Part shown: positions 6,939 to 60,275 of the stretch, one piece after another
Numbering within the stretch: position 1 is the first letter of the stretch
Layout of the letters: every line of letters starts with the position of its first letter
Source of the DNA: Cheilinus undulatus
Lineage: Eukaryota > Chordata > Actinopteri > Labriformes > Labridae
Length of the DNA stretch: 64,000 bases
Assembly (NCBI RefSeq): GCF_018320785.1
Contig: NC_054882.1
Location: forward strand, 26,788,719 to 26,852,718
Direction of reading: 5' to 3'
Program-made: the position numbers and the translations under genes
The notes under the pieces: model-generated
The model's input: the letters and a program-made list of their open reading frames with translations, nothing else
What the model was told of the DNA's origin: nothing
Databases searched by the model: none

Positions 6939-7043
6939 GTGACCTACTAAATGACATATCATTTGAATCAATTGAAGCAGTTGTTATCATGTCTTTCCTT
7001 TTTCTTGCACTTCCTGCATTGCCTCTGTTCTTTTATTCCCGCT

Positions 7044-7049
7044 AATAAA
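7044..7049 (+). other. Poly(A) signal of olfactomedin-like gene A
   Basis: AATAAA lies 106 bases after the stop codon of gene A and is the first canonical hexamer downstream. Confidence 0.7.
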
Positions 7050-12002: not shown

Positions 12003-12122
12003 GCCCTCTTCATCCATATGTGATCAGTCGATTATGATTAATAGGACTGATCTGCATTTACTCACTCTGTCACTTCAGTGGTATAGATCTACTCACTGTA
12101 ACACTAACACTGTCTTTTCCTG

Positions 12123-12128
12123 AATAAA
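12123..12128 (+). other. Poly(A) signal of olfactomedin-like gene B
   Basis: AATAAA about 120 bases past the stop codon, in a 3' flank homologous to that of gene C. Confidence 0.7.
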
Positions 12129-15679: not shown

Positions 15680-16197
15680 TAGATTGCACTTGTTGAAACT
15701 TGGGCACTAACAATGGATGGAATCCCCTGAGGGTGGAATGAACTACCAGACTCCATTAAATCAGTTGATTCCTTTTCTACTTTCAAGAGAAAGCTAAAGA
15801 CCCAGCTCTTTCAGGAACACTGGTGACCCTCAGCTGGCGAAGTAAGTCAGTCCAGACGTCCCCCTCCCCAGCAATGCTTTCAAGTTCCTCTTTAGAGATT
15901 CTGAGGTGCTTCCAGGCCAGATGGGACATATGATCCCTCCAGCAAGTTCTGGGTCTGCCCTGAGGTCTTCCCAGGAGGCATCCGGATCAGATGCCTGGAC
16001 AATCTCAACTGGCTACTTTAGACGTGAAGGAGCAGCGGCTCTACTCGGAGATCTCTCCAGATGTCTGAGCTCCTCACCCTATCTGTGAAGCTGAGTCCAG
16101 ACAATCTCCCGAGGAATCTCGTTTCAACCACTTGAGCCCACACTCTCATTCTTTTGGCCGTTACCTAAAGTTCATGGCCATAGGTGAGGGTTGGAAC
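15680..16197 (-). mobile_element. LINE tail fragments, interrupted by a hAT insertion
   Basis: At 15715-15825 the plus strand reads WNELPDSIKSVDSFSTFKRK, the conserved C-terminal segment of L2/CR1-like reverse transcriptases. From about 15830 to 16197 the minus strand corresponds to the C-terminal region of another LINE type abundant in fish. The latter resumes at 17605 after the hAT at 16198-17596. These are two abutting LINE fragments in opposite orientation, both without open frames. Confidence 0.6.
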
Positions 16198-17596: not shown

Positions 17597-18042
17597 GTTG
17601 GAACATAGATCAACTGGTAAATCGACTGTTGAATCCCACAGCCATTCTACTGTACTTATTTATAGTAATCAATAACCGTGTTCCTTTTAAGTATTTCAGC
17701 TGTGCTTTCTCTAAGATGACCTTCCAGTGTTTTTTTTCTCATAATGCACTAAAATAACCATGTTATTACCAGATAAATATTTGGTATAGGACCATAAAAG
17801 ACAGAATAACAGACTCAACTACATCTGGCATTGTTCTCATCCAGCTCCCATGATCAGGTCAAACCTGATGTGGTGGATTTGGCAACATTTCTTTTCTCAA
17901 ACAAGGATATTGTGTCTTCAAAATATGAACAAACCAAGCGTGGGAAGAGAGAAGGTGTCCGTGATGAGATGATAACATTTGTCTTTAAAAAACCCTCTGA
18001 CCAGAAAGTCAAGGAGACACATGAGAGGAAGACTGAGTCAAG

Positions 18043-19743: not shown

Positions 19744-19857
19744 GCCCTCTTCATCCATATGTGATCAGTCAATCATGATTAATAGGACTGATCTGTGTTG
19801 ACTCACCCTGTCTCTTCATAAATTTACTCACTGTAACCATATCACTTTCATTTTCTC

Positions 19858-19863
19858 AGTAAA
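19858..19863 (+). other. Variant poly(A) signal of olfactomedin-like gene C
   Basis: AGTAAA occupies the place where gene B has AATAAA in an otherwise homologous 3' flank (both are followed by atcaaactgaagcattc). It is a known weaker hexamer variant, so 3' end use may differ between the two near-identical genes. Confidence 0.5.
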
Positions 19864-19869
19864 ATCAAA

Positions 19870-20930
19870 CTGAAGCATTCCAAGACATGTCTTCTGGTCT
19901 TTGCCTTCAATGCATATTTCCCACTCCATCATAGCTGTCCTATTGAATGTCAAGGTAAATAAAAAGAAGAATTGAAAACTGATGTATTATGTATTGTGTT
20001 TCATCCAAAAAGACTAATGAAGTTTGTGCAATGGAAAAACACTATCAATAATTACTGAATGTTAAAAAATAAAAGTCCAATTAACAGCATGTCTTCTGGC
20101 TGAAATTAATACGCTATCAAGCACATTTTATCTTCATCATATCTGAAGTGGACTACGAAATGAGACATGCACTAAATCTGAAAGAGGTGCTTTGATAGAA
20201 GATTAAACAGGATATCAAACAAAATGAATTATTGACAATGGGTGGGGGGGTGCCATTGCTGGAGTCCATGTGAAACACACACATTGCCCACAACAGCGCC
20301 AACAGAAAAGGGTTATCTAACATGTTTGCATAAAAATGGAGTCTAAATGGTATTATCATCCAATCAATCAGTCAATCAGTGTTTTTATAGCAGTAGTTTC
20401 TAACCAATGTTATCTCAAGATACTCTACAAAGAGGGAAGGTGTTGACTGTACTCTGTTATATTGTTCATATGTATCTAACATTAAGCACTAAGCAACCAT
20501 TAGTAAAGTTACAGTGGCTGAAGAAGAAGAAGAAAATGCAGGGAGTAAGGGGAAGAAGCTAAAAGAGAGGAGAGGAGGTGCCAAAAAAGATAAGAGAGAA
20601 ATGCAGAAAAAAAAACAAGCAAAACAACAACAGTGAATAAAATAGATTAAGGCTGTTCTGTCCTTGGCTTTATTCACACTCAAAAAATTGGAATAAAAAA
20701 TGTAAGGACTATCACTAGAATCCTACAATCCTCTTCAGGTGGTTAAAATTGCTCTCATTGCAGTAAAATCAAAAATCTGTTAACTGAACATTTAATCGTG
20801 CTCCGGACACAGACTGTCCTGTGACATGAGAGCTTGTTTGGTGCAGCACTGAAAGTCATCCAAAATTACCTAGAGAGATGGGACAGTTCTAACCTTGCCA
20901 AGCAGATGGATACACCCGTTTCTGTTTCTC
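19870..20930. other. Intergenic DNA with a decayed dispersed repeat
   Basis: Around 20355-20660 a caatcaatcagtcaatcag run is followed by sequence like common teleost interspersed repeats (ttatctcaagatactctacaaagag) and a purine-rich stretch. No gene was recognised. Confidence 0.4.
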
Positions 20931-20933
20931 ACT

Positions 20934-21560
20934 GGCGAATCCATCTCGCAAAGCTCCCGTCTAAACTGTTTGGGCCCAGTTAGAAAGTGACAGGACCAAT
21001 CAGCGTCGAGGGGCAGTACTTTCGGGCGCAGCAGAATCGTAACATAAGCAAGCAGGATGCTGCTAAAGTGCCAGTTTTATTAGAACGTGACAACATTTCT
21101 ATGTTAAAAGAAAAACAAAGAGCAGCATTGAGTTGTTTTCTTTTTAAAAACAACAAAAGTTGTCTACTGACATGTCTATAGTCGCCATGGTTTGTGGCGT
21201 TACGCAGTGCTCTATCAGCTCAGCAGTGGCTACGTCACGTGTTTTGTTGCTCTGATTGGCCCGTAAAGATGTGACAGACAGAACGTTCATCCAGTCGCCT
21301 TCTGAATTTTTTTTCAAAGGCTCTGCCCTTTCCCAAACGCTTTGTATAAATGGTTTCACATCCATCCGGCGTGCCAAGTTTGCACAGTTCATGGCGCATA
21401 AAAGACTGCCAGGGGGATTCAGATAGTACACTAACTCACAGAGGAACGACTGTAGGGGCTCATTCAAGTTACAAAATCCGGGTTCTATTTAGCAGAAGTG
21501 CTTGGAACTCTGACCAGGCTTATCGGTCACGGGATTATATGCTGTGACCAATAACTCTCC
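20934..21560 (+). repeat. Dispersed repeat carrying RecQ-helicase-like coding debris, copy 1
   Basis: The open stretch at 20987-21181 reads VPVLLERDNISMLKEKQRAA. Its QR-containing part resembles the segment just before motif I of RecQ-type SF2 helicases. The same DNA family occurs at 61990-62580, where the downstream part (VFTLLPT) is also visible. Further on come gctctgattggcccgtaaag and gtgacagacagaacgttc, the latter echoed at 62510-62535. No full helicase remains, and the element's ends were not defined. Confidence 0.5.
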
Positions 21561-21599
21561 GCTATGAATCTCTCTCTCCCTACTCGCTGGGCTCTGTAT

Positions 21600-22270
21600 A
21601 GTTAACGAAGCCCATTGATCCCAGGTCAGGTGAAATAACCCCGGTGTCAGATCAGATATCATATAAATCTGTAGCTATTTTACAGCCTAAAAACAATACA
21701 AATAATTTTACCAGAGGGGACCAGCATCATGAAGACCTGATTAAGGCAATAAAGTCATTTTTGTCAATAAATGACTTAGCCATTATTTTTAGGAAGGTTA
21801 CAATTTTCAGGTAAAGCACTTAAACTGGTGGGATTACCAGCAATGTGAGCTTGAATATCACTGGCGTTTGGTCAAAACCTCCTATCTCCATTTTTCATTA
21901 GTTTAATGTTTTCTTAAATCAGTACAAAATATGTTGACTCGGACCATTCAGTCTTAAATAGTTTAAAGAAAACAATGTTTTCCTCTTCCCTCTCTGCAAT
22001 CATAGGGAGGGAGATTTTTTCAGATGTGTCCGTAGAGTGAGTAGGTTTCTTACCATGCGAACATTTGTCAATAAAATACAACCAAGAAGTCATAAACCTG
22101 CTGTAAATCCTAGAATGTCTTATCAGTACACACAGCTGCACTGATCTCAAGGATGTGAATACATGAATGATGACTGCTGAATGTTGTCACATGTGTTATC
22201 TTGGATGATAAGAGGTCTACACCCACAAACTACAGCAGCAGTCTCCTCAGGTATCCTAAAAGTAACGACA
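21600..22270. other. Intergenic DNA upstream of gene D, nothing recognised
   Basis: No exon, RNA gene or clear element ends. The last ~100 bases should include the gene D promoter and 5' UTR, but no strong TATA box was seen. Confidence 0.4.
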
Positions 22271-22272
22271 CA

Positions 22273-24389
22273 ATGTTTGGGATTCTGCTGCTTCTCTTTT
22301 CCATCCTGAGCCCTGCGCTGGCCTGGCTCGTAAGTTGACATGATAAATGTCCTTGTTGAATACTGCCTCTGTGAGCTCTTTAATGTCAATAACAAGGTTT
22401 GCTTGCAGCCGATGGAGGACTGGGAGTCAGGGAACGTGACTTCATCTGGTGGAGAACTGGAGTGTAAGTGCAGCGTGTTTCTGCCTGACATCAGCTTTCC
22501 TGCTGACCGAATGCAACAAATGCAGCAGGTCAGCTCCGACCTGAGAGTGGAGGTGCAGATCCAAATGAAAAATGTGAGTTTAAAAAATCCTTATTTATGA
22601 TTTTTAGCATTATTTGTGTTCCTTACAATATGAGCTTAGGCTACACATAGTGTCACCAGTTACCAGTTAAACCATGACACCAGTTCTGTACTACAGATAA
22701 AATCAAATGAAAATTGAGATGCTTACTGTTTCATTGTTGTAGTCATTACTGAATCTACACAACTTGGCATTGAGCCAATCAGTCCATGGCACTGCTGAGG
22801 TGTTATGAAGCCCAGGTTGCTCTGATAGTAGCCCTCAGCCCTTCTGCATTGTTGAGTCTGGTGTCTCTCATCTTCCTCTAGACCAGGGGTGTCCAAACTA
22901 TAAAAAAAGCAACAGAAGGAGCATCCTCCCAACACTAAACTTAGGACTTAGACGCGCTTTGGAGTTTCTCTATGGGGATCGGGACAGACCAGTTGGCTGG
23001 CCAGTCAAACACAGTAATACCATGGTAAAACACCCTGTGGTCCTGACTGTTTCATGCTGATTTATGCTTTCGTCACTCCTCAGATGGAGAACTATGACGG
23101 TAAGCTAAATGTCTACCTGAAGGAGCTGGCACAGCTGAGTTTCCGAGTGGCCATGCTGGAGACCAGCGCTGCCAATTACGTCAAGCTGGACTTTGAGCTG
23201 CTAAGGATCGAGCTCAGGGAGTTTGAGGCTCTGGTGTCTCAGCTCAAAGACTCCTTCAACTCCTCCTCACCCGTGCTGGAGGATCTGCTTACAGAGGCAG
23301 GCAGAAATCATTCAGCTTCACTGCTCTCTTCCAATTTTTTTCTTATCTTACTGTGACTTCATCTATTCTTCCAGATTCACAATATGACCAACCTTGTTAA
23401 CCAAATGGAGACTTTTGATAAAAGCAACCTGGAAGTGATCCGCATTGAGTTTGCTAAGCTGCAGAGGAAGCTGGAGGAATGCCTGAAGGCGCAGGACTAC
23501 ATCGAGCCGGATATTGGTAAATGCATGTGCCATTTTTGTGGTGCAGTATCTGCTTAGCAGGTTGCATGTGACAGTAACCTTTTTTTCTTTTCCAGGCAAC
23601 TGCAATCACACAGGAATCCTGAGTGTAAGCAAGCCCACAGTGATCCAAATAAATGCCCACTTGAACTCAGGATACCATTATGGCGGCTGGGGAAAAGACT
23701 CTAAGCCAGTCCGTGGCTATGAGTCGATGTACTGGTACGGCGCCTACAGCAGTCCCAATGTTTATGAGTTTTACTTGTACTCTGATTATGACAAACTCCT
23801 TCAGAGATCCACCTTCACTCATTACACGCTGCCACAAGGCTACGTAGGCACAGGGAATAATTACATTGTCCATGGTAATACAATCTACTATCAGGCTGCT
23901 GCTCCTTTCAGAATGTCCAAATTAAACATGACCTCCTCGGTGTTTAGTCACATGGAGATCTCACAGGCAAGCGAGAAATTCACCTACACCTATTCACCAA
24001 GCCAGTATCTTGATTTCTCAGCTGATGAGAATGGATTGTGGGTAATGTATACCAATGATGAGGCAAGAGGTAAAATAGTTGTTGCTAAAATCAATGAGAA
24101 GTCATTTGGCATTGAGGATGAGTGGACCACCAGTGCATACAAGCCTCTAGCTGGTAATGCTTTCATGGTTTGTGGGGTTATGTACGCCACCAGGCCTAGT
24201 GATCTGAAGACAGAGGAGATCTATTATTCCTATGACACCACGACAGGTGAGGAGAAATACATGAGCATTCCCATCCAGAAGTTCCAGGAGAAACTCGTCA
24301 ACCTGCACTATAACCCCACTGATCAGAGGCTTTACATGTACAACGATGGCTATTATGTGTCCTACAACGTGAGGTTTAACAAAGAGTGA
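22273..24389 (+). CDS. Olfactomedin-4-like secreted glycoprotein, gene D of the tandem array
   Basis: Exons 22273-22329, 22409-22573, 23084-23296, 23375-23516 and 23596-24389 join in frame to 456 residues. Exon 1 encodes MFGILLLLFSILSPALAWL, a signal peptide. Exon 2 has NVT and CKCSVFLP. Exons 3-4 are the coiled coil, and exon 5 is the olfactomedin domain (GNCNHTG, YHYGGWGKDSKP, ENGLWVMYTNDE, VCGVMYA, ending RFNKE). Exon lengths match genes B and C (exon 3 is 213 bases, exon 4 is 142 bases). Intron 3 (23297-23374) begins GC, not GT, making it a GC-AG intron; no usable GT donor lies nearby. Intron 2 is longer than in the siblings and holds a hAT-like end near 22890. The gene appears intact. 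Confidence 0.9.
22888..22912. mobile_element. Solitary hAT/Charlie-like end in intron 2 of gene D
   Basis: The word caggggtgtccaaacta matches the left end of the hAT element at 33700 (caggagtgtccaaacta). No matching right end was found nearby, so this is a truncated copy or a chance match. Confidence 0.35.
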
Positions 24390-27584: not shown

Positions 27585-30500
27585 ATGGCGAAGAGGGATT
27601 ACCTGGTAGAGGCGGCCAAGCAGATCCGCATGGCCTTGGACAGTGAGGTCAACGAGGACTATGAGGCTGCTTTCAGCTACTACAAGAATGGGGTGGACCT
27701 GCTGCTGAATGGGGTTCAGTGTAAGTGGAAAACACATAGCCTTTTAAATCTTGTGATAAAGAGGAATTTCTAAAGGCGTGTTTGTATAAGACACGTGATG
27801 GGGAACATGTGGACCAGAATAAAAACAGGAAGTCACAGACCAAAGGTTGGACAGTCATAAGTTGGCAGTGGAGGGTCCTGTTTTGCTGTTTTGTCTTCAC
27901 TGGTTCTGAATGTTTTACAGTGGATCCAAATAAGGATCGTCGGGAGGCTGTGAAGAGAAAAACAACTCAGTATCTGAAGAGGGCTGAGGAAATCTTCATC
28001 ACACATCTGCAGGATAACCTTGGGAAAGGAAGCTCTCATTTAGGGGTAAGACAGGCATCACATTTTGGCATTTATAGAAAACTACATTTTGGTTTGCTTG
28101 AAATGATTACTCTTGAGCTCCTAATGTAAGATAACAGCAATTTTGCTGCATTTTGAGGCCTTTATAGTCAGTTCTTGTAGCATATGGGGGAAAAACCCTC
28201 TTCTATCTAATACCATTACATATCTAGGGCCTGTTTTAGATTCAACATTTCAATGTCCCATGCTCATAGACCCGCACACAGAAATGGCCGTGTAAATGAG
28301 CCCTCTCCAGGTGTGCTTTGATTGTATTGGTGCATGTGTGTTGGGTCAGTAGCATTAGCATGAGACTCCTGGCTTAAATAAGCATCCTTGGCTTGTTTCC
28401 GATCAGTTTTCAGAGCAAAACCAATTCAGATAGTCAAATGCCATTCCCGGTCTTCCCCCATTTCTTCCCATTTCTTTTCTAGATTCCCAACTTTAGTGCT
28501 GGTCCTGGCTTGCCTGTACACTGTCTGACATTATCGGCCAAATGGTGGAGTTCCCAGGGCTTGCTAGGGTTAATAACATTACAGAAAGAAAGCCTAAAAC
28601 CATCTGAAGAGGAGGGGGTTTAAAGGATACATTCAACCGAAGCGGCAATAAACAAAACGTGTTATGTTTCTTTGACAAAATGTCAGTTAATTGAACGCTA
28701 ATTGTCCCTTTTAGCACACTTTGGCGAAACCGCTGCAGCCTTAGTAATGTAAAATAAGTCTACCACTGTGCATTTGTACCTTGTGTCATTAAAAATAACC
28801 TTTTACGTGTACCTTTCAATCCATAGCAAGTTCTTCTTTCCATGGATAAGTTTATGTCATAATCTTCATAGCTATGCAATGTCGCTAAGTTAGCTTTAGC
28901 AACATGAGCTTCAGCAAATGTAGCTAAAGCTGAAGTAGCTACATAGATAATGTAGCTAAGTTGCTTACATAGCTGCTTTGTGAGCTTAGCTTTAGCTATG
29001 TTAACTAAGTAGCTCATTTATCTACATAGCTTACACAGTTAAAGGAGCTAGGTGAGCTACGTCTGTTGCATCAGAGTGTTTTCACGGAGAACAAGCTTTT
29101 TCATGTAAGCAGACTTTTCAGATTACAACGATGAACTGAATCTTTTGAAAGCCCTACCATTATTTTCAGTTTTGTTGACCTCCATAGCCGCTCTTACCAT
29201 CCCACTGTGTCCCCAGAAGCTTCCCTTCTATCACCCCTTGCCTTCCTCATGCAGATGAGCAGTGCAGTGCAATGACTGTACCATGAAGCCTTACAATGAA
29301 AAAATACTCAAGGATTACTCTAAAAACCACAAAAAAATATGGAGAATGTGGACATATAAAATAAAAGATAAATTAAAAAAGGTAAAAAGAAGTGTACTGT
29401 GCTTTTATATTGCCTGTAAGCCTTAATCATGACACAAACATAGAAAATTGCATTTCTCCCTTGCTTCATTCAACCGTCACTAATATCTTCTGTGCCTTCC
29501 GTCTTCAGGGTTACAGCAGTCTGCGGTTCAGACCAATCAGACACTTGAGTTCGCCTGTGGAGGACCTCGAGATGTGTAAGGTGGTTGGAGTGACTGATAA
29601 GGTAAGACCGCTTTGCTGGTATCCTAAAGCCAAGGTCAGACTACATAATTCTTTTGTCTGTTACTACGGCCACTCTGTCAGATAAGGTGAACACAGAGCC
29701 AAAAATTCATGCCTTGGCTTTGCTGACAGTCGTGTCAGACCACAAGGAGGTATGCGATCAATCATGTGAAAACTTGAAGAAGATTCTAACAAACATGCTG
29801 TATTTACTGTACAGTACTATACTGTATTTGTTCGCCCAGCCAAACATTAAAACAAATTATACACTGCCTGGCCAAAAAAGTCGCCACCTGGATTTAACCA
29901 AGCAAATAGGTACGAGCCTCCTATTGGATAATTACTGCATGGGCGATTATCTTTCAGCTGGCAACTAGTTATTTAACCCCAGCTGATGCAATGAGTAACT
30001 TCTCATTTCTTAAACAACCATGTCGAAAGACACATCCTGTGGTCGTGGAAAAGATGTTAGTCTGTTTAAGAAGGGTCAAATCATTGGCATGCATAAAGCA
30101 GAGAAAATATCTAAGGAGACTGCAGAAACTACTAAAATTGGGTTAAGAACTGTCCAACACATTATTAAAAACTGGAAGGATAGTGGGGAACCATAGTCTT
30201 CCAGGAAGAAGAGTGGTTGGAAAACAATCCTGAATGATCGTGATCGGCGATCACTTAAATGTTTGGCCAAATCAAAAACAACAGTAGAACTCAGGGGTAT
30301 GTTTAATAGTGAAAGCAAGAGCATTTCCACATGCAGAATGCGAAGGGAACTCAAGGGATTGAGACTGAACAGCTGTGTAGCCTTAAGAAAACCGCTAATC
30401 AGTAAGGCCAACCGGAAAAAACGGCTTCAGTTTGCTAGGGAGCATAAAGATTGGATTCTGGAGGAATGGAAGAAGGTCATGTGGTCTGATGAGTCCAGAT

Positions 30501-33500
30501 TTACCCTGTTCCAGAGGGATGGGCGCATCAGGGTAAGAAGAGAGGCAGGTGAAGTGATGCACCTTTCATGCCTAGTGCCTACTGTACAAGCCTGTGGGGG
30601 CAGTGCTATGATCTGGGGTTGCTGCAGTTGGTCAGGTCTAGGTTCAGCAATATTATGTGCCCAAAGAATGAGGTCAGCTGACTACCTGAATACACTGAAT
30701 GACCAGGTTATTCCATCAATGGATTTTTTCTTCCCTAACAGCACGGGCATATTCCAAGATGACAATGCCAGGATTCATCGGGCTCAAATTGTGAAAGAGT
30801 AGTTCAAGGAGCACGAGACATCATTTTCACACATGGATTGGCCACCACAGAGTCCAGACCTTAACCCCATTGAGAATCTTTGAGATGTGCTGGAGAAGGC
30901 TTTGCACAGTGGTCAGACTCTCCCATCATCAATACAAGATCTTGGTGAAAAATTAATGCAACACTGGATGGAAATAAATCTGGTGACATTGCAGAAGCTT
31001 ATCGAAACAATACCACAGCGATTGCGTGCTGTAATCAAAACTAAAGGCGGTCCAACGAAATATTAGAGTGTGTGACCTTTTTGTTGGTGGCAACTTTGTT
31101 TTTGGCCAGGCAGTGTATGCTAGCATGATGCTAATGCTAATGACAGTTACTCAATTGCTGAAGTGTGTCCGCATCTCACCAACATTTCTCTTTATTCAGT
31201 CTGTCATGATTGATTCTATGACACATCATCAAGGCTGGGATGTTGTTGTCAGAGATGAACAAACTTTTCCTCAGACTTCCACAGGTAGACAGTGACTAAC
31301 TCGATGAACACCCTCACTCATGATGCAGAAGTGTTTAACATTAAAAACAACAACAATCCATCTGAGGCAAGAGCAAAGTTATCTCAGCAGTGATTACTGT
31401 ACAACAGGCAACGTAAACAAATCTAAACACTGTGTCCAAGGGCATAATGGGAAAACTCTGCCTATATATCCCCAGATTTGAATAGGCAGTGGGCGGATCT
31501 TAAACCTTTTGACCCTCTACGGCGACTTAAAATTACACTGAAGACCGTTTAACTCAGGATGGAGTTAAATTTATACTTTGGGAGTTAAATCCTCTGAACG
31601 CTGGGATATCAGCACTCCGGTTTTTAGAGTGTACGACTGTTGGATTATAATAGTGCTAAAAATGTGTAGTCTGACCACGGCTTGAGACTTACTACCTGTC
31701 TGTTTCAGAAACTGTGTTGGTTTTGTGTTTTGAACATTATTTGTATCTTCATTGTTTTTCCTAAAGGTCCTGATTGTCCAAAGTATGGTCAATAAGGAGA
31801 CATTTGTCGTTAAGGTTAGTCTTTATTTTCTCACACTAAAGTAAGTAGTGAATAATGCTTTTTACATTGCTTTGTGTTAAGCAAATTAAGTTCAAGCTCC
31901 CATGAAGAATCTTTGCTTTGTTTTGATTTGGTGTCCCCTTGTGTACAATCCCCCAACAGCCATGTTTTGTGTATTTTTTCCTGCATATTAATAAGTTACT
32001 AAGTAAGTAATAAGTTTATTTGCAGTTAAGGTAATGAAATAACTCCAAGGAACATCTTTTTGATGGTCTTTTTTAAAAAGAAGCATCATGGGTGTAGAGA
32101 TGGTTGAGTGGTTTTTACATACCCATGTACGCAGGTGGCTCAGGTTCGAATCCGGCCTGAGGCCTCTTACTGCATGTCCTTCCTTACCTTTCTTCCCTGT
32201 TTCCAAGTCTATCCACTGTCCCTTCTCTATCAAATAAAGGCATGAAAAGGCCTAAAAATAAATCTTTAAAAAAAAAGAAGCATCATTGTTAATTTTAGTC
32301 CATTTTATAACCAGATAAAAGCTCTTCACAGGAGCTTTAAAGACCAGTCCATGACAGACATCTACCCACTGATAGATGAGCCCGTCCTTGTATTGTGTGG
32401 CAGGCCAGTCGATGGGAGCTCTCTCCATCCTGTCTCCCTGAGTATCTCCTTGTACTGATGTGCATGAAAGTGCTCACCCTTTTAGACAGTGCAAGCGCAA
32501 CTCAAATTACACTGACTGGAGACAGCATGACTGACAGGCCATGATCTTTAAAGAAGCAGTTCTAGCAAGCAGTAGTAGTGTTATTTTTTAAAGCAGTTTC
32601 CTTCTTGCATATTTAATTCAATTCAAGTTTATTTGTATTGCAAATTTCATACAGGTGTAACTTAATGTGCTTTACAGAAGATTAAAAACAAACAGATAAA
32701 AGCAATCAGCAATTCAAGCAAATTGCCCCTTCCCACACACACACCTATATACAGTGCAAGTCAGGTGTACTCCTTAGAGTATAAAGGAAAAATGCAAATA
32801 TATTGCACTTCATCTAACAGTCAAAGGCATAAGAAAAAAGCAGTGTTTTCAGATTGCTCTTAAAAGAATTTCAAGTGTCTCCTGATCTCAGGTTAGTTGG
32901 CAGCTTATTCCATAGAACAGCACCATAATGTTTAAATGCACCTTCCCCTGATTTGCCTTTTACTTTAGGCACATTTAGAAGGACCATACTTGAAAATCTG
33001 AGTGACCTGGTTGGGTGATATGTGTGTATGTGCATTCTCCCTCTTTCATTTTATAAACTTTACGTTCCAGAGTCTGGTTAAGTCAAGCTGGGAGAGCAGG
33101 GATCAGCCGACCATTATTCCTCAGGGGGTGCCGTACATGGTAAAGCTGCTGAGATACTACGTCAGCGAGGATGCAGTGTACCTGCATCTGGAGCATGTGA
33201 AAGGTGAGATGTGAACTGCTCTGTTATATGTGCTGTTGGTTTGTGGAGCTTATAAGATGTGTAAATCTCAGTCCTTTGTTTATACAGGCAATTAAAGCTA
33301 GAGTATATAAAATTGTCTTTTTGAAATTTTAGTTACAATGAAGAATTTTGATCATTGCGTGTCACTAACAATTTTTAAGTTCAATGTTTCTTTGAATAAA
33401 TGTGAGTGACCTGTATGCAAGCCCTTTGTGTTTAGTTTGAAAAGCCAATAAGGTTTAGTATACACAAAACTAGCCAATAAGAACTATTGCGAAACTTACT

Positions 33501-36500
33501 GTGATGTAACAGAGTAGGAAAAAAATGTTTCTCCCTGTGGTTAAATATAATGGATAACCACCAAAAGTAGGGCGGGGTATTTCCCAAAGCTTCAAAATAT
33601 GATACGTATTGGAATGCATGTTGATTTGGGATAATAAACATGATGCAACAAACATGCCCCACACAGACTTCACCACAGCAGCTGTTCTTTATTGTAGAGC
33701 AGGAGTGTCCAAACTATGGCCCTGGGGCCTTATGTGGACTGTGGCCCACTATTACCGGTACCCAAAAATTATTTAAATTAAATTAAATTAAATGAAAAAT
33801 GGCCCTTAATAGAGCATGAAGCTTGTGCTACAATGTATTATTCTTCTTAGTTTCGAAACAAAGCAGTGCTACCATGTTAATACTGTAAACAAACATTTTG
33901 ACAAGGAGAAATAGCTGTTTTTTCAGAACTTAATTGAGATGACACTATAAATAGTAAAAATATTTGCAACTAAAACAATAAAGATATCTTGAATGACCTA
34001 AAGTATTACAGCAGCAAATAGCAACACCAATGATGTTCCAGGGCGGGGCCAGTGGTAGCCAGAGCTGCTTAGGGCCCCCTGAAATCTGATTGGCCTCCTC
34101 AAAATCCTTAAAATGATTGACCATTTGCCTTGTCAACTTTCAACTAGCCATTTAAGCATACCCAATCACTCAGTATATCTTAACCAACATTGCATTGGTT
34201 TTACTCTTAACTAACTTTACTTACTTCTTGGACACCCCTGTAGTAGAGGATAACAGAAAAGATATAGTTTAAAGGTTCTTACACTTCAAAACACTTAGAT
34301 TCAGAACCTCATAGATCTGAGTAAATGAAAATAGTCTAGTTATAGTCACTTTGATTAAAAATGTGCTGAAGAAGTGTTGTGAAGTGACAGCAGCTGCTCT
34401 CTGTGTGGGCATGGGCTCATGGTTTACACCCCTTCACCTTAGATTTCTCCTGCTAACTGGTCTACACTGAAGTTTTTCACCTCTCTCTTTCTTCTCGCTG
34501 AGTCTCCATCTGTAGAAGTTGTTCAATTTACTCTGGCTAATTAAAGTACCCAGTCGAAGCCACAGCACACAGGACGTCATCATCACTTGCTGCCCGCAGA
34601 CACAAACAGCTGACTACGTACACTGAGGTGGAAGAGCACATAGCCAGTAACTGAAGCTTGCATTGCAAAATAGGGCCAAACACAGAGGCTTCCTGGGTGA
34701 AAATAAAATGCTTAAAAAATGTTCCGATATAGCGTACAACTGAGCCAGCATTTCTGGCTCATTTTTACCTTAATCTCTCAAAATTATGCAGACAAACTGT
34801 ACCTGTCTGCTAGCTATATAGCCTAGCTTCCTCCAACGCGTCCTGTTTGAGGAGTCAACACTCACTAAAATCACTAGAGGCCAATGCCACTTTCATTGCC
34901 AAATACCTCATATAACTCAACTTCAAAAATACAGAAATATCCATTGAAGGCCCTGACTTGGCTCTACGTCTGTTAAGATATGAAGCTAATAAAGTTAGCT
35001 AAACATGCTTGTGTTTTTTTTTTTTTTTTTAATCAGAGGCCATTCCTTCATTGTCTTTCCATCCCAGTGGGAAGTGGAGGAATGATCACTTCATACCATT
35101 TGAGTATGACAGATGACATTTACACATTTTTAAAATCTCTTAACCACTTTAATTATCAGGATTAGCATCTTGTTGCTATAAAACGTACCACTTTCTCATT
35201 CAGTGGTAGAAGACGCCAGAGGTCGCACCCAGAGTTTACGCAAGGTATCATGAGGGCTAGGAAAAGATGCTATGGCTACCTAGCTAGCTCTGCCATTAGA
35301 TAGTCTGTGTAGTCACAAGGAATTATGGGGAAGTTGGGTACAATACTTAAAAATTCTGGCCATACAATTTTTTTTTGAACACAAAATTGAAATAGCCTAT
35401 TTTTGTTTGATGTAATTTTGGGCTGTGTGTTGTTTACTGCCATTTTTGGCATGGTTAGCTTGCAGCATTAACATTAGCATTAACATTAGCATTAGCATTA
35501 GCATTAGAAGGCATGAAAAGTATCACAGTTTGGGTATTTGATTGATTGTTTCTGACCTTATTGTCCTAGGTGGGAGGCTCTTCTCTAAGCTGAACAAACT
35601 AAGGAACGAGAAGGCTAAGGAACACCCAGAGTGCTTCACCGCTGGGCAGCCAAGCATCAAAATGAAGACCAGCTACACCTCACCTTCAATCAGCACAGAC
35701 TACCAGCACAACACTGGAGAAGGCACAAGAGTTAAGCTAAGTGATGAGAGTGCTGATACTGACTTTCCCACCTCATGGGACGAGACTCAGCAGCTTGTGG
35801 AAAGCTGCGGCACTCACTCTTACATCGAAGAGACGGGCTGTCTGCAGAACAAACGCTCCGCGGCTTCATTTTATACCAAGCTAGAAAGGCTAACCCTGCA
35901 TACTGGCCCCACAAGAGCGCAGGTCAACACCCACATCCATCCACCAGCTCCCAGTTTGTGTTTGCATTCTGGTGAAACTCAGGAACAGCCCGCTCTTCCT
36001 CTGTCTTGCGCTCGTGTCAGTCAGGCCCTTAACACCATGTCAGGCCTGCATGCGAAGAAGGCCGGGATGGGACTGACGGAATGCAGCTCTGAGTTTGAAG
36101 TGGCTTGGAAAGCTGCTGAACCAGCACAAAACTGTGAGAAAATCAACCCCTATGCAGTAACTGATAGTCATTCACTTAACTTAATAGGACCAACATCACC
36201 TCATACCAACCAGACCTCATTGACAAAAGCAGGATCACCCAGCAGTGAATATAACGGTTTGAGTTCCTCCCCAGCCATTTTACATCTTCCTCTCCATTGC
36301 CAAACCCAAATTCGAGGCAGGGCTTCATGGGACACCAATGGCTCCCACCAAGGGTCTGTTTTGACTGGTCATGCCACAGAAATGGTTACAGACTCAAAGC
36401 AGGAAAGCAGCCCAACCAGCGAGGAAAGAAACGGGATGGTAGTCGTCAAAAGTACAGACAGAGCAGTATTTTCTGAACACACGGACTCACAGATTTCTGT

Positions 36501-39500
36501 AGAGAGCCATTGGACTTCCTCTTCCTCCCTCTGTCACAGCTTTGCAGCAAAACAGGGGACATTTTTAGGGGTCCAACTGGCCCTCTCAGGGGACATGTAC
36601 AAAGGTGGAACAAGCTCAAAAGATGGTGTAGAGGAGGCATGTGAATTAAGTCCAAAAGAGAAGGTACCACCTACAAAAGAGCGCTCATTCATGAGCTGGT
36701 TTTCCTCCAACACTGCTGAAGCCCTGCCCCACAGGAAGACAGAGGATGTTGTCCTCAAATCAGAGGGATCAGAGGGACAGGGGGAAGATCAGATCATAGA
36801 AGTAGACGGCTGGTGCCACCTGCCTCGGTTTCCTATGAAGCCCTCCAGGCCTGCAGAAAAGACCATGCAGACTTGTTGGGGGCTTCCAGAAGCGGAGGTG
36901 CGTGTCTGGGGGGCTCAGATCCTTCTGGCACTGGAGAGTCTGCATCAGCAAGGCATCCTGTGTCGGGATCTCAACCCGAGAAATGTGCTGCTTACCAGCA
37001 ATGGTGAGTTTATAGAGTTTCCTTTAAGATCGATGTGGGAAACTGAAATTTACTGAAGCCTTAAGCAGAGGTTTCTATCAATTTTATTCAAATTGTTATG
37101 ACCAGATCTTGATTGATTTATCTCATACACAAAATTAAGCTTAACTTTGCTTATTAGAGTCGGTGCTGCAGCATGCAATGCCACTGATTTGGCCTGTCGC
37201 AGTTTTTTTTTTTCCAGATTACAAGAAAATTATCTGACATCATGAGAATACCAGGTTTATTATCTAATAGTAATGAGTAAAATTAACTTGTTATCCAGAA
37301 AGGTTGGGACATTGTGTTAAAAATATAAAAAACAAATGTGATTACTTCAAGACATTTAAAGCCTATAGCTGATCAAAAAAAGCTCAGACATCATAATGTG
37401 ACACCTTTCTTTAAATGTTGCACTATTTTTCAGTTAAGATTGGTGAATCTCTTCCTATCCTTTCTCAGACAGACTTCGCCTCTCTGAGATTCTATTTTTA
37501 TACCCAGTCATGTGACTAAGTTGTTGGCCCTGATTTATTGTGCTCAGCAGTGCCAGGGTTAGTGCCGTTGCCTCGCTTAAGAAGGTTCCTGTGCAGAATC
37601 CCTGTTGGACAGGCCCTTTCTGTGAGGAGTTTGCATATTCTCCCTGTGTATTTGTAGTTCTCTTCAGGTACTCTGGCTATCACATAAAAATACATGCTTG
37701 TTAGATTAATTGGTGACTAAATTGCCCATAAATGTGAGTGTGTGACTGTTTTTTTGTCTCATTATGTCAGCCCTGTGACTGACTGGCGACCAGTCCAGAG
37801 TGTACTTTGTTTACTTATATATGCATTTACATATTTATTGTAAGGGACAGTGCACATTAATGAACATGGACATGTAAATGCGCCAGACTGCAGTCAGGCT
37901 AATTCCCATCTGTAGCCTCTGGCAGGTAGGTGGTATACATATAAAAGTGTACATCAAGCATGTACATAATGAAAATAAAAAATATACATAACATCAGACA
38001 ACACATAGAGACTAAACAAAGACCTATACAACAATGCAGAAGGCGGATTTATTCGCTTAAGACTGACTAGGAATAAAGTGTCCATTACACTTATAGTGCA
38101 TAAGGCAGATGGTAAAGTGTTAATGTAATGCACATGATTATAAATGTGCTTGAGGAAACACATTTGCCCTTGGCCTGTTTATTTAAAAGTGCTCAATTTA
38201 ATTGCACATATCCCTATTGCACATAATTTGCATATAAAGATGTGTTTATGCATGTATTATTACACAGGGAAAGCATACATAACTGTATCTATGTATGCAA
38301 TATTGCACAAAAGATGCATACATAGTTATATGTAAGTATGTAGGCATGGAGATAATTAGGTGGTTAAGCATGGTAACAACTCTCCTGCCCAATGACGGCT
38401 GGAATCGTCTCTAGCCTTTGTGACTCTGTAGGGAGTAGCAGTAAAGTTAATGAATGCATCGATGGCTGTCCCACCAGATTTTTTCTTTCAGCATTCAACT
38501 TTTCTGCTCTTTTGTTGCTACTGTACTAATTTTTATGAAAGGTATTGTGAGCATAATATTTAAAAAGGTCATATATTTTCCCCCAAATTATGAGATCACT
38601 TGGTTTCAGCATTTTCAAAGCTTTATTTTGGGACTTTTTGCCTTTAAGGTACAGATAGTAAAGCAGCTGAAGTCAGAAACAAGGAGTGAATGACAGGCAA
38701 TGGAAGACCAACAAACTGGATGAGCTGTGTAGCGCAACATTACAGCAAGGCCATCTGTGCCCCTCACTTTTGACATTTGACATGCTGCTTTTGTGTTTTT
38801 TAATGCAATATGGTATTTCAATAGTTTAAAACAATCACATTATATTTTTACATTTTGAACACTGTATCCCAACTTTTTAGGCAATAGGGCTTTAGAAAAA
38901 TTAGTTGTTAGCACTTTGAATTCATGGTAAAACCAGCATGTTATCTTGAACTAAGACAAATAAGTCCAGATCTTATAAAGACATATACCTCACAGAATGA
39001 ATAAAATATACTAATGTGTGTCTGCTCAGGGCTTCTGTAGCTATAAGATTCTGATTAAATGTGATGTTTTCACAGGAAAGGTGTGTTTGACATTTTTCGG
39101 CCAGTGGAGTGAGGTTCAGTCAGAGATTTGCTCCAAAGCCATGGACCAGATGTACTGTGCTCCAGGTAAAAGCTGCCTTCACTGGACTCAAAGAAGTTCT
39201 TTGGTGTAAGGTGCCACCTAGTGGCAGGATTTAAATGCCTCAATTCTGTTGAAAATGCAGTACTGCCCACAAAGACAGGGTTATTTTCAGAGCTGTTTTG
39301 AGATACAAACTAAATCTAAAATCATGTGATTGCATGTTGACAGAGATCGGTGGGGTATCCAGAGTGACTGAGGCGTGTGATTGGTGGAGTCTGGGAGCTT
39401 TGCTGTTTGAGCTCCTCACAGGAATGGTAAGTGACAGATTTTAGTAGTAAACTGATTTGCATCATTCATGAAAAAACTACAACACTGTCATGTTTTCTTT

Positions 39501-52430: not shown

Positions 52431-52466
52431 GATTCTTATATTTGAATTATCCTGATCCTAAGAAGC

Positions 52467-55400
52467 ATGAACCTCAGTCTCCCTGACCAGAACATGCACA
52501 GCTCTTCTGAAAGCTGCCTGGAGGATGACAAACCTGATGTTATGTTGCCGTGTTTCCGTAGAAACATGTATGACGAGCCTCTGGCCTCATACCCCAACGG
52601 CTCCATCATCTCCCAACTCCTCCGCAAGACAATCCAAAACAAGAGGGCACTGGATGAGAGTCACTTCTTCCTTTCCTCCTCTGCTGCTGACTCCAGCCAG
52701 GAGGACCAGAGCAGCGTCTCCTCTAAGGACAGCACGGTGGATGCTGCCTCTCCCAGTGCTCACGTGTCCACGGGAGGAAGCCCAGAGGGAGAGCATCCCA
52801 TCGCTGATCACCTGCAGGCAAAGAGGGCCAGGGTGGAGAACATTATCAGGGTGATGGCCGGCTCTCCAAACAGCAGGCAGCATGGAGACAGTGAGAGGTC
52901 TGACACGGATGCTCGAGACGTCAGAGAGACCAGAGAGACGTACAGAGAGAATAAACGCAAGCAGAGGCTGCCTCAGCATCAGGAACACAGTATTGGAGGA
53001 CCGGCAAGCAGAAGCAGTAGCAGTGAAACATGCAAAGCTAAAGATGAGGAGTGTCATAAGCTGAAGGAGCAGCTCCACAGCATGCAGAGGCTCCTGCGTC
53101 AGCTGCAGGAAAAGTTTCTTCAAGTTTACAACCAGGATGAGCCTGAACATGACACGGATGAGACAGAAGTCACAGCTGAGCATGATGGCCTGGAAGAAAG
53201 CTACACAAACACTGAAGAGGATTTGGAGAGGAAGACTAAGGACAGAATGAAAGTTCTGGTCCACCAGAGAGAAAGTCAGAACCTGCAAGAGACCCTGAAG
53301 CAGGAGCTGTCCCGGGCTGTGAATGACTGTGTGGACAGAGTCTTCAAAAAAATCTCCTCCTCAGGGTTGGATCTGTCCCCTCAGCAGCGCATGTGCTCCT
53401 CTCCTGAGCTGCAGACCAGCATGGGTGCAGACAGGAAGAGTCAGCAGGCTGGATCCACCCAGGAGCAGCCCCAGGCCGAGGAGGCTGCAGGGAAGCGCCG
53501 CTCTTTGGAGTATTATGAAAGCTCCGAGGCTCAGAGCCCTCAAGACCAGACTGAAGCATTGTCCCTGGTGGTGCGCAAGCCAGCGGTAACCCCTCTGAGC
53601 TCGGTCACCCCGACTGTGAAGAGGCCCTATCCTGTGCACCAGACGCCATTTCAGTTCAATTACCCCACCCCTCTGCATGACAGTCAGATCCTGGAGCACC
53701 TTCTCAAGTATGGGCCGCATTCAAGCTTCGGGGGTCTTCCGTGCCTTCCTCCATCCATGGACAGGACCTCCCCTGACTCAGTGGAGCTGCCCTGGGAGGC
53801 CATCTCCATGAGGTCCAAGGTGACATCCGGCCACCTGGGACACCACCCTCGCCCCTCCGCCCTGGGGGCAGTGACGGTGGACAATCTGTGTCTCCCTCAT
53901 GTGAAGATCGAGTGTGGAGAGCTGCAAAGCATGGCTGAAAGAAACCCCTACATGTCACTCAATATATCCTTTTATAAAAAAAGAAATATTTTAGCCAAAT
54001 CAGCATAAATATTTGTGTTTTAGCCTTTAAGAAAAAGATTTAAGATGTAAAACAAAAGCCGTTTATTCAAGTATTTACTATAAAAATTTAATTTAACTGT
54101 CAAAACCTTTTACAGAGTGGTTAAAAAGGATTTATTCAAGCATTTTAATTCTGCTGGCACAAATTGACACAATTTTCAGTGACAACTTTGATTTCACATC
54201 ATATTTTTATGTGCTATTGCAAATTACAACAGGCTATGTCTGATAATTTCCCATATATACTGTTTTGATATCAAACAAACTCTCTTTATTTCAGCTCCTC
54301 CATCGGAACAATGGCTGGTTGAAGCTCATTGCAGCATGGGCAGTTCCAGTAACAAACTTCAAGGAGAATTTTTTCTTTGATCTCGCTAACCCCATAGAAA
54401 ATTACAGCGTCTTCTTTAATCTGAGCCGAGTAATGACTTTAAGTTTAGAAAAAGACAAATAAAAAGGAATACAAGGCTTTGATAAGAATTGCCAGGAACA
54501 AAAGCCAATTTTTCAAAGGGAGAGAAAGCATCGGTTTCTGTTTCAGGAAGCGTCGTTTTTTCTGACTTGAAAAGGTGCAGGATCTATTTCTCCATCATCA
54601 GAGTGATGGGGGTGCATCTGAAAGGTCACATCTGAGTGCTGGTTGGAAATCAAAAGTGCCTCCCAACCACAACACTTGAGCTCTTGTCTTGAGCATTTGT
54701 TGTAGGATGCATTTGTCAGGATGTACGAGGGAAATCAAGTGCAAGATAACAGTGCTTATTCCTCAAAGGAAGTCAAGAAATCACTGGGTAATAAAATATA
54801 TCCAAGCAAAAATATCTGAAGAAGTCAGAACCAGAATTACATCCAGGTATTGCAAAACCTGAAGTCTTATCAACAAATGTATAATCTAAAAAAAAATCTA
54901 AAAACATCTTATTTAAGAATAAAAAATAAAAGGCCCGATAGGTTAAAAAATATCCGCCAATGCACAAGCAAAAGCAAATGTCTTGAAATGAGATGGGCTC
55001 ACTGATAGAAACCCAAAAGGACATGCATCTTTCATTGTGCTCCTGTAATAATTAGAGACGAATCGTTAATGAATGAGGTGGCACTTTTATGTAAAAGACA
55101 GGAGCCGGATCCTGTTTGAGAGTCAGTTTCTCTATTTATTATTATTATTTTAGATACAAATATATACAAAATCAGGAGATCATTTTTCCACCACAGGCAT
55201 ATCAGGCAAATGAGAACTCATACAAGATGGTATAATATTGTTTAACCTGAGCAGGTTTTGTAGGGACGGGATATATCTCAGAAAATAAATTCATGAGATT
55301 TTCATAATTTAAAAGAAAATACTGAGGCCTGCACGGTGGCACAGGGGTTATGCACAGGTTCTCTTCAGGTACTCTGGCTCCCACTACTAAAAGCATGCTT

Positions 55401-58400
55401 GTTAGGTTACCTGGTGACACTAAATTGCCCGTAGACATGAGTGTGAGAGTGCCTGGTTGTTCGTCTCTGTATGTCAGCATTGCCATTGACTGGTGACCAG
55501 TCCAGGGCGTACCCTGCCTCTCGCCCAATGGCAGCTGGGATCCGCGACCCCAAAAAATGGGATAAGCGGTGTAAATAATGGAAGGATGGATGAGCACCGG
55601 CTTGGCAGGGTCCCACATGCAGAGGCTAGAGTCCTCGAAAAACACTGGTTGCAGGAATGATTCTTGGTCCCAGTGCTGTTTGGTGCTTGGATCCACTCTC
55701 TCACTCTCTCTCCCTGTGTTTCCTTTTTCTTTTCACCTGTCTCCTGTCCTATTGAAATAAACACAAAAACCCACCAATAGCAATATTTAGAAAATATGGA
55801 ATAAAATACATGTACACATATCAATCTTGTGTCAAAAAATACTAAATTTCGCTGACTTGTTGAAGTCCAAGTGGTACCAAATGAGAGCCGTCTCTTCTTG
55901 CTGAGCCAAAATGATCTGGATCCCTAAAAAGATACACAATTCCCCTCTCTAGCAATAATGATTACATTTTCACATTTTCAGATGTGGATATCAAGAAATT
56001 AACTCACTAATACAGGAAAAACAGTTTTGTCATCAAAAATAACAAGATTAATCATTCAAAATCTTAAAAAAAAACAACCAAAATGTACTCAAAAAATGAG
56101 TAAAATAAAATAGATGTTTGTCCTCTTCAGGCCTTCACTTACCAACCTAGAATTAATATCTAATTTCAAGACATTTACCAAATATAATGTGCTTGCTGCA
56201 TTTGCAGATATTTTTTTTGCATTACAAGCAATTCAGGTTTTGTTTTTGCACTTTCTTATTCCTTTAAATAGAAGTTTGTCTGGACCTGTCAGATTGGTCT
56301 GGTGTACAGAAACTGAGCGTTGAAATCTCTATGTTGAACATCACAGATTTGCTTTTTACTCTGAAGTATAATTTTAACTCCATTCTGAATCAAATGGTGT
56401 TCGGTGTTTGTTTTATTTGACAGTGTTGATCAAATCAGTGTTAGTCCAACTGTCATCAACCCACTGCAAATTTCAAATCTGGGGGAATATGTGGGCTGAG
56501 TTTTCCCATTATGCCCTTGGGTAGAGAGTTTAGATGTGTTAAGATGTATTTAGATATGTGTCTAGATGTTGCCTGTTGTGCGTTGAATACTGCTGGGATT
56601 CATTAGTTCACGTGTCTGGTGGATTGTTGTTTTTGATGTAAGATGCTTTTGCACCATGAGTGAGGCTACCCACTGAGATAGTGACTAACTGACGGTGGAA
56701 ATAGATGAGTTTAAGTTGAGCGTGGTGTTATTTTGATGCCAACGACTGTCCTCTAGCCATAAATTTGACTCTTGGCTTCTTACTTGCCAGAGAGCCTTGC
56801 AACAAATGTTCAACACAAAGTGGTAATCTTTATAAAGCTTTAGAATATATTGTTTTTTTGTTTTTTTTTTGATAAGTAACATTTTAAATACTTATTTACA
56901 CCCTTAGTGAAAGGAAATAACACAATGTGTTAAAAGTGCCCTTAAATGTGCAAAAAACAATATGAGAGTTAAATAAATTAACACTACAAGAGAGTTAAAA
57001 TATTAACTTTAATTTAACAAATGAATTTAACTCGAAACCAGGGAGAATTATAGTAATTCTAATTTAAACTAACCAATTTAAAAATTTTAAATTTAACAGT
57101 ATGTGAGTTAAAATGAAACAGATGATTTTGCTGTGTGTAATGTGATATTTTTTAACAATTAAATAGACAAATACACTTTCTTAGAATGGATTTTTTGCAG
57201 TTTTGCAGAAATTAAATTTGCTTTAGGATTTTTGTTGCAACTAACAAAAAATATGGAGGAAGAAATTGAAAGTAGAAGGCTTGTGAACAACAGTAATCAT
57301 ACTATAAGGGTAATTTAGATAAATAAACATTAAGCAATCAAATGTATGAAGTTTTAATACAAAGTAAAATAACACTAGTGATGACAGAGCTGCACAAAAA
57401 GGTGCAGGATTTTTTTAGAGCATATACTGTAAAATAAAGCTATGCATGATACAGTAAACAATGATTTAATATTACACACAATTTATATTGTAATAATAAT
57501 GTGAAATAGATTTAATTATTCTTTAACTCAGTTAGATCTGTTTTTATTTTTGATTGTAATAAGGAAAGGTTAAAAATTTTTTAAATATTTTCAATAAAAA
57601 TATTTTTAAATCCATGCAACCTCTGTTATTTTGATAATCGATGAAATGGCATTAGTGAATGAGGCCTTAATACTTCACATCTCCAAAAGCTGCAGCAAGT
57701 GAAAGAGAGAGGCAGAGTATTGCTACAGATACATTGCTCAAATATTTATGCAGTCAAACAATTTTACAGGAGTCTATTTATTTTTTGGTACCTAATAAGA
57801 CATGGCCCAGCACTAGGAGCCTAGGACTTTTATTTTTGTTGCTGTGGTATTAAAACATGAATTATTCCCAAAGTCACATCAGAGTTTTAATTCTGGTATC
57901 ATTTCAACCTTATTATTACATAAATTATCTCCCCTATTATTTCCCCCTAAAAGCCCTCATAAAGTCAGAACTTTTTGGTTTAGTTGGCTTTATTTTTGCG
58001 AGGCATTAGAGAGATATTGTTATGTGATGCCTCTCAGGACTCACTTTCTCTTTACAGTGCAAAAGAGCTCTGCTTCTCTTTGAACAATATCGCATAAATC
58101 TTTCATCCCAACTTCCTTATTTCAAAGGTAGGGATCCCTAATAAAATGTACACGCTGGGGTGACCTGATAAGGAAATATTATGACCTAAGGCATACTGCT
58201 GGACTACAGAGGAAATGCTCTGGAGCGTCTTCTTTGCCATAGGGGAGAAAACTTGAGTAGGTATAGAATTTATTCATTCTTGCAGTAAAGAAAATATATA
58301 TGGAAAGGCAGTATGTGTCAGATAAAATCAAATCATTTACATTTGCAAAAAAAAAAAGTATCTTTTTATTTGTCAAAATAATACTTGTCAAAATTTCTAA

Positions 58401-60275
58401 GACAAATACACAGCAACATCTGCTGTCTTTAAACCAACTTAATTATATCAGAAAGTCAGCTCCTTTTTCAAAACATTTCCAAACACGCCATCTTAACTGC
58501 CAGCCATGAAGTGCTCCGCTCTCTAATTAAAAATCCCTAATCAAATTCGTAATTCTGTTTTGCCAATAAGCACATGTTAGGGTCATTATTGACTCTCTGG
58601 TTAATGTCGGGCTGTTCTTTAGGGAAATTCAATTTAACTGAAGATTGAGGCAACACAATACTCTGCTCTGCTATCACTTTGCACTGGATTGTTAATGTGT
58701 GTGTGTGTTTTTGTATTTAATTGTCAGTTTTTGTGCCTTAACATTAATGTGAACATCCAGGAAGGTCTCACCCCGAGCCACCTGAAGAAGGCGAAGCTCA
58801 TGTTCTTTTACACTCGCTACCCCAGCTCCAACGTGCTGAAAACCTACTTCCCTGATGTCAAGGTAATTCTTGTCTACTTTTATTTCAACAGATTGTTTTC
58901 GCTGTGTTGAACTCACCGGTTTCTACTTGTCAGGGTGTGTTCGGGACAGAAAAATCAGCAGTGTGTCGGAGGAGAGAAACAAAAAGGCAGAGGGTTTAAA
59001 CAACAAAGGCGCTGAGCTGCTAGTATGTCCTGGGGGCAGAGGGAGATACACGGGCATTCTCTCTGTAAAAAGGCCACTCCAGTCAGCAAATGGAGTGACA
59101 AAGGACTCTGTAGGAAAGGCATTGCTATTGAGTGTCAACACAGAGTTGGTATTAGAGACTTGTGCGGCTGTGAGCTGGTTCTAAACACAACATCCTGTCT
59201 GTTTTGGCCTTGGTCTCATGTCATGGCTTCTCCTCTGTGTCCTCATCTCCTTATCTGGTTCCTTTTATTATTACTTCTCATGATCCTTTTTATCATATCT
59301 TTCTAGTATTTTAAATAGTATAAGTTTTATTCATTTTTTCCTCCAACACCTCTCAGGTTTCTCCTCTTCTTCTACCTTTATTTCTGAGCCCATGCGGGCC
59401 CCTGCTCTGACCCCCAGGGTCAGGGGGGAGGATGCTGTCGCTGCAGCCCCTGCGAACGTCTCCTCCTTGCTTACAATCCTGTGGTGGGAAGTGGCAGTGA
59501 ACAAAAGAGCACCTAATCCCAGTGTCTGATTCCATCCTATCAGCCCGAGTCAATGAGAGGGAAGCTTCCTTCTGTCCTTACGCTGCCGCTTTCTCACCCA
59601 CCACACCAGAGGGAAGAAGCGTCTTTGATGCCTGCCCAGCCCTTAGGCATTTTTTTCTGTCTTTCTGGATGAGGAGATAGAATAACAAGACTAATGTCAA
59701 GACTGAGTTTAGAAACACAGAGCCTGACAGATGTTTTTTCACCCAGGATATTGGTGGGAAAGGATCAGAGCAATTAATTTTGCGTAGAGTGACAGACCAT
59801 TTGGTGGCATTTTGCCCTACAGGTACCCGATGAAGCTTTTCAGGCAATTACAGAAACGCACAGTGGATTTTATAATTGAAAATACTGGAGATTCCTGTTT
59901 TTTACATTTCTTTTTGCTCTTATTGGCTCTTAGAATTAAATTCTGCATTAACACAGACCCTCCTTACAGGTGGATTAAATGTTAAGGAAGCTCTCCAGCA
60001 CCTTGAAGGAAGTCATTTTCCCATAATCCTTTGATTAAACAAACATGTTATAAAACGCTTTTTTCTCGCTCTGTTTCTAGTTTAATCGCTGCATCACCTC
60101 TCAGCTCATCAAGTGGTTCAGTAACTTCAGGGAGTTTTACTACATCCAGATGGAGAAGTTTGCCCGTCAGGCCATCGTGGACGGCATCAGTGATGTCAAA
60201 GACATTACAGTCAGCAGAGACTCAGAGCTTTTCCGGGCACTCAACATGCACTACAACAAAGCCAACGACTTCCAT
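52467..60275 (+). CDS. prox2: Prospero homeobox 2 transcription factor, last exon outside window
   Basis: Coding exons in the window: 52467-53963 (499 codons), 58755-58862 and 60081-60275, joined in frame to 600 residues. The first exon has family motifs: [61 protein letters not shown] and VKIECGELQ. Exons 2-3 carry the start of the homeo-prospero domain ([20 protein letters not shown]...[20 protein letters not shown], then [20 protein letters not shown]). The expected last exon (VPERFLEV-type start, ~55-60 residues) was not found before 64000. The intron 53964-58754 is of U12 AT-AC type, and the next one is GT-AG. Synteny with DLST and RPS6KL1 favours PROX2 over PROX1 or PROX3. It acts in the nucleus as a DNA-binding regulator of differentiation. 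Confidence 0.93.
53964..53973 (+). promoter_or_regulatory. prox2: U12-type AT-AC 5' splice site in PROX2
   Basis: The intron starts ATATCCTTTT, the U12 AT-AC donor consensus, directly after the in-frame codon AAT. No plausible U2-type GT donor fits the frame here. Confidence 0.85.
55325..55590 (+). mobile_element. SINE-like element, copy 2, internally deleted
   Basis: It opens gcacggtggcacaggggttatg, jumps to ttctcttcaggtactctggct, and continues with gaccagtccagggcgtaccctgcctctcgcc. It is the same family as 37545-37810 but lacks the B-box region. It lies in the U12 intron of PROX2. Confidence 0.65.
56290..57130 (+). repeat. Dispersed MITE-like repeat, partner of 31125-31640
   Basis: It contains gagttttcccattatgccct, the reverse complement of the core near 31440-31460, and several agttaaat/taactt words. 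Edges are unclear. It lies in the PROX2 U12 intron. Confidence 0.45.
58734..58754 (+). promoter_or_regulatory. prox2: U12-type branch point and AC acceptor in PROX2
   Basis: TGCCTTAAC (58734-58742) is close to the U12 branch-site consensus TCCTTAAC. The intron ends with AC at 58753-58754, 13 nucleotides after the likely branch adenosine, within the tight spacing typical of this class. The exon then reads ATC CAG GAA GGT, restoring the conserved QEGL(T/S)P. Confidence 0.85.

Follow-up and report, generated by a model that had tools for sequence, protein, structure and literature searches.

The window analyzed here, a 64,000-nucleotide stretch of the Cheilinus undulatus genome, contains a 4,791-nt intron (53964..58754, + strand) that, with a probability that we put at about 0.97, would be the ancestral minor-spliceosome intron of prospero and PROX genes, residing in the PROX2 gene of this wrasse. 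The intron begins ATATCCTTTT, ends in AC, is of phase 0, and adjoins the homeo-prospero (DNA-binding) domain on the 5′ side of that domain. The splicing is taken from a deposited wrasse protein (P0001) together with the signals in the sequence, and the junction is common to many vertebrate PROX2 and PROX1 proteins. When the sequence was re-read, the coordinates, the AT-AC ends and the letters were those given in a first-pass annotation of the same DNA.

The wrasse PROX2 gene

The first coding exon (52467..53963, + strand) contains 499 codons, running from an ATG at 52467 to an end that reads ...MSLN with AAT as its last codon, and corresponds to residues 1–499 of P0001. The next coding exon (58755..58862, +; 36 codons) opens with ATC CAG GAA GGT and starts the homeo-prospero domain, as judged by Pfam HPD and by alignment to human PROX1 (2lmd). 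This exon is followed by an intron with ordinary GT-AG ends (58863..60080, +; GTAATT...TTTCTAG) and by a coding exon that carries on the domain (60081..60275, +), with GTAAGT directly 3′. Spliced together, 52467–53963, 58755–58862, and 60081–60275 give 600 codons in frame.

The best match in a protein search, at 100% identity over the whole query, was P0001, a protein of 655 amino acids deposited as prospero homeobox protein 2 [Cheilinus undulatus], and letter-by-letter comparison revealed that all 600 of the 600 spliced residues are identical to its first 600. Since the identity is complete, the gene is, by its sequence, PROX2, the name that it had been given at first pass. The choice between PROX2 and PROX1 is based on this identity and on bit scores against two sets of listed proteins: the window protein scores 827–1251 against the best 120 of 839 PROX2-search proteins and 189–372 against the best 120 of 881 PROX1-search proteins. 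These ranges do not overlap, and for the listed matches they rule out a PROX1 identity. As a search of the window with the last 55 residues of P0001 gave no significant match, the last PROX2 coding exon should sit outside the window.

In the spliced protein, the Pfam HPD match (PF05044, E = 2.3e-58) starts at residue 503 and spans profile positions 1–98 of 154; the positions past 98 would fall outside the window. The top match in the Protein Data Bank was human PROX1 (2lmd), to which query residues 497–599 were aligned. The read-through open reading frame (ORF; 52446–54005) had no match in a Pfam search at E 0.001. Scans of the whole window against Rfam, at gathering thresholds, and for tRNAs found nothing.

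Elsewhere in the window, four tandem ORFs on the + strand (6054–6935, 11052–11999, 18697–19740, and 23487–24386) each contain an olfactomedin domain (PF02191), and the region that they span (6054–24386) looks like what we take to be an olfactomedin-4-like array. ORFs at 10626, 18407, and 23018 have a long similar stretch in common, without a Pfam match. A weak MIT-domain match (27740–28126) and a partial protein-kinase match (35542–37053), both below curated cut-offs, suggest an S6-kinase-like gene, presumably of the RPS6KL1/RPS6KC1 type; on our assumption, RPS6KL1 beside PROX2 would fit human synteny. A Tc1/Tc3-type transposase match (PF01498, 7.3e-11) lies at 30197–30799.

Signals of an AT-AC intron

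The 5′ splice sites of U12 AT-AC introns follow the consensus RTATCCTTT, and U12 branch sites follow TTCCTTRAC, approximately 10–15 nt before the acceptor. At the donor junction of the wrasse intron (AAT|ATATCCTTTTATA, 53963/53964), the 5′ splice site ATATCCTTT (53964..53972, +) lies directly at the exon end and matches the consensus at 9/9 positions. The branch-site motif TGCCTTAAC (58734..58742, +) has one mismatch to the consensus (8/9) and ends 12 nt before the end of the intron. The branch adenosine is probably 58740 or 58741; counted from 58741, the branch lies 13 nt before the AC end, as had been annotated, although counted from the end of the motif the distance is 12 nt. The intron ends with the AC at 58753..58754 (+), as read in the sequence; its 3′ end reads TGCCTTAACATTAATGTGAAC, and the acceptor junction is TGAAC|ATCCAGGAAGG at 58754/58755. 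Between the branch motif and the acceptor lies ATTAATGTGAAC, in which there is no polypyrimidine tract; a TTTTT run sits 5′ of the motif. The U12 intron of human SMYD2, as given in Table 1 of PMC7367187, begins with the same nine letters as the wrasse donor.

By themselves, the splice motifs are unremarkable in the window. RTATCCTTT has 3 matches on both strands, compared with a mean of 1.57 in shuffles, and TTCCTTRAC with up to one mismatch occurs 37 times, compared with 38.39 in shuffles. What counts is that the motifs coincide with the exon ends demanded by homology. Under a first-order Markov model of the intron, RTATCCWT would fall within 31 nt with a probability of 0.0024, and an AC end with a branch motif (up to one mismatch) 8–20 nt upstream would fall within 31 nt with a probability of 0.011, giving a product of ∼2.6e-5 for the placement of donor and acceptor/branch together, with the 31-nt zones being our own choice.

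If the intron stays in, translation past the donor reaches an in-frame TAA at 54006..54008 (+), the false stop at 54008 that had been predicted, and the product would have 513 residues, 14 of them beyond the junction. The intron had also been described as having absorbed repeats. This is partly supported, as two stretches resemble other parts of the window and are dispersed repeats: 55358–55512 is 77% identical to 37657–37805, and 56364–56700 is 66% identical, in inverted orientation, to 31277–31578.

The junction in other PROX proteins

For comparison with relatives, we used the best 120 of 839 matches in the PROX2 search and the best 120 of 881 in the PROX1 search; all counts are of database clusters, not species. 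Among the listed PROX2-search proteins, 64/120 have a clean x|IQEGL join by a pattern count that is loose: 52 of the 64 read exactly YMSLNIQEGL, 12 do not, and P0004 and P0056 look doubtful. The in-frame junction N|IQEGLTP proposed at first pass is borne out both by these joins and by the identity of the spliced protein to P0001. The other 56 comprise 19 proteins that stop short of the domain, 15 that read past the donor and rejoin beyond the acceptor, 1 that reads through on both sides, 11 in which the next exon begins too early, ahead of the true acceptor, 5 that read NIS|EGL, and 5 others.

Could the intron instead be of the ordinary U2 type, with GT-AG ends at nearby sites such as donor 53901 or 53954 and acceptor 58727, 58760, or 58777? 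Joining GT donors in 53880–54005 to AG acceptors in 58640–58800 (GC donors were listed, not joined) yielded 12 in-frame, stop-free possibilities, and some proteins of other fish look as if they were joined in this way (LCLPH|EGLTP in P0041 and NPYI|HLKK in P0047). However, all 12 joins lose or gain residues relative to the deposited wrasse protein, the best GT donors match only 6/9 consensus positions, and the 64 clean joins are at the AT-AC position. We consider a U2-type intron extremely improbable, and the enumerated alternatives are ruled out by the altered protein (12/12) and by donors matching at most 6/9 positions.

The U12-type AT-AC reading also accounts for a sequence seen in many of the proteins that lack a clean join. 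LNISF, which is the translation of AAT-ATA-TCC-TTT, the exon end plus the donor, is present in 35 of the best 120 of 839 PROX2-search proteins (19 truncated and 16 read-through), and all 19 that stop before the DNA-binding domain do so through it. These proteins provide strong but indirect evidence that the ATATCCTTT donor is conserved in other fish, and would also record mispredicted exon ends, with the proviso that ATA-TCC-TTT is not the only codon series that yields ISF and back-translation to the donor is not unique. A gene finder bound to GT-AG introns had been expected to misread the end of this exon. Such misreading is seen in other fish, both in the LNISF proteins and in P0041 and P0047, but the deposited Cheilinus undulatus model reads the junction correctly.

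In 20 of the 35, LNISF is followed by H. Despite this, the tails soon differ: the 19 truncated proteins have 17 distinct six-residue starts after LNISF and continue for 1 to 87 residues to their ends. Such divergence is more in keeping with conservation of a splice site than of a coding tail, and we think a conserved read-through C terminus unlikely. It also bears on the idea of a conserved switch, compatible with a U12-type intron, in which retention of the intron yields a short PROX2 lacking the homeo-prospero domain. The 513-residue product is what such a switch would make, and PMC6717393 names PROX1 among the genes that ground a model of minor-intron retention, where the matching reference is a fly prospero paper. 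However, the tails diverge, and 17 of the 19 truncated proteins (16 from lgn and 1 from ena) are probably plain ORF calls on DNA; we regard the switch as unlikely.

On the acceptor side, the misread models P0022, P0046, and P0098 carry FCLNxNVN ahead of IQEGL, which is a reading of the branch motif. In the 11 proteins that start upstream of the acceptor, LN stands four residues before the join in 8 and LT in 3 (P0069, P0073, and P0120), a spacing that the class pattern itself fixes and that is no independent result. P0040, which is not one of these 8 misread models, also has LN four residues before IQEGL. Apart from the 19 truncated proteins, the proteins without a clean join (37 of the 56) are records named from NCBI, UniRef, or nr. 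We attribute the 56 to faulty gene models or to plain ORF calls, and some could be real variants.

In the best 120 of 881 PROX1-search proteins, the junction reads ST|IQEGLSP in 44 and SA|MQEGLSP in 25, which is the matching place in PROX1. Neither main form is found in 51, of which 18 fall outside the pattern and 33 have other or extra junction residues and may be misread models or use other acceptors. Read-through of the donor, as GSAISF or GSTISF, occurs in 4/120 (P0122, P0161, P0200, and P0231). By their sequences, the listed PROX1 proteins mostly join where PROX2 does. Four PROX1 isoforms of the frog Pyxicephalus adspersus (P0137, P0139, P0140, and P0144) differ at the U12 junction, with GSA|MQEGL in two and GSAFY|MQEGL in two; the FY might come from a choice between two acceptors separated by 6 nt. 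Two-residue insertions of this kind also occur in PROX1 models of some other amphibians and of some sharks and rays.

Relation to prospero and possible regulation

A 2010 paper on zebrafish prox1b (PMC2956630) states that a U12 AT/AC intron lies at the start of the homeobox in all vertebrate Prox genes and in fly prospero, a statement for which it refers to studies of zebrafish prox2 and mouse Prox1. Table 2 of a 2010 survey (PMC2831892) classes pros as an AT-AC twintron and gives human PROX1 as the U12 ortholog, and in that survey such human orthologs share the subtype of the fly intron. Together with the comparison of junctions, these two sources support the first-pass proposal that a minor-spliceosome intron occupies an ancient position common to PROX1 and prospero. 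Compared with the zebrafish prox1b intron, the wrasse intron differs in species and in paralogue, and is 4.8 kb long with its two dispersed repeats. Compared with the human PROX1 intron, it is of the same AT-AC subtype (PMC2831892) and has a matching protein junction, in a paralogous gene. The wrasse intron is therefore an already-described feature, correctly read in one more fish, and is ordinary for the family.

The parallel with Drosophila that had been drawn holds in part. Like the fly intron, which PMC2831892 counts as orthologous to that of human PROX1, the wrasse intron is a U12 intron of the AT-AC subtype. According to PMC3564746, the prospero U12 intron is ancestral and its U2 sites were added early in insects; in the fly, splicing can use the U2 intron in place of the U12 intron, which gives a second isoform (PMC3564746; PMC6865273). 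A similar arrangement in the wrasse would be compatible with the U12 intron, and a shifted U2 alternative, such as one from donor 53901, would be compatible with the sequence. However, the donor GT of a nested U2 intron would have to fall after the start of the U12 intron (53964) and before the in-frame stop (54006); there is no GT in 53964–54008 and the first is at 54015, past the stop, so a nested intron of the fly type is excluded on the donor side. Moreover, Table 1 of PMC3564746, which gives 18 human twintron genes, contains no PROX gene. We consider a twintron of either form very improbable.

A literature search that paired PROX2 with minor introns found no paper. PMC7730772 describes PROX2 of human and cow as a candidate case of intron sliding without canonical sites; we suspect that the case concerns this same U12 intron under a different alignment.

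How might an ancestral minor intron affect PROX2? In the established scheme of minor splicing, the U11 and U12 snRNPs would recognize ATATCCTTT and TGCCTTAAC, after which U4atac/U6atac/U5 would join, and AAT would be joined to ATC so that the homeo-prospero domain follows in frame. What the sequences show is the signals, the match to the deposited protein, and the junction and donor readings in relatives; that cells employ the U12 machinery here, like any effect on dosage, is our inference. Were the intron kept, the chain would stop 14 residues past the junction and lack the DNA-binding domain. Slow removal by the minor spliceosome could thus cap how much functional PROX2 is made. It is conceivable, if doubtful, that minor-spliceosome activity sets the level of full-length PROX2 by cell or stage, with retention leading to a domain-less protein or to decay.

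The wrasse PROX2 intron is a clean positive control for the reading of minor introns from raw sequence. In public collections, PROX2 proteins frequently contain errors at the U12 junction, and comparisons of PROX2 should allow for this. If minor-spliceosome activity does set PROX2 levels, the dosage of PROX2 in vertebrates would depend on the supply of minor spliceosomes, with regulation at the point where fly prospero is regulated.
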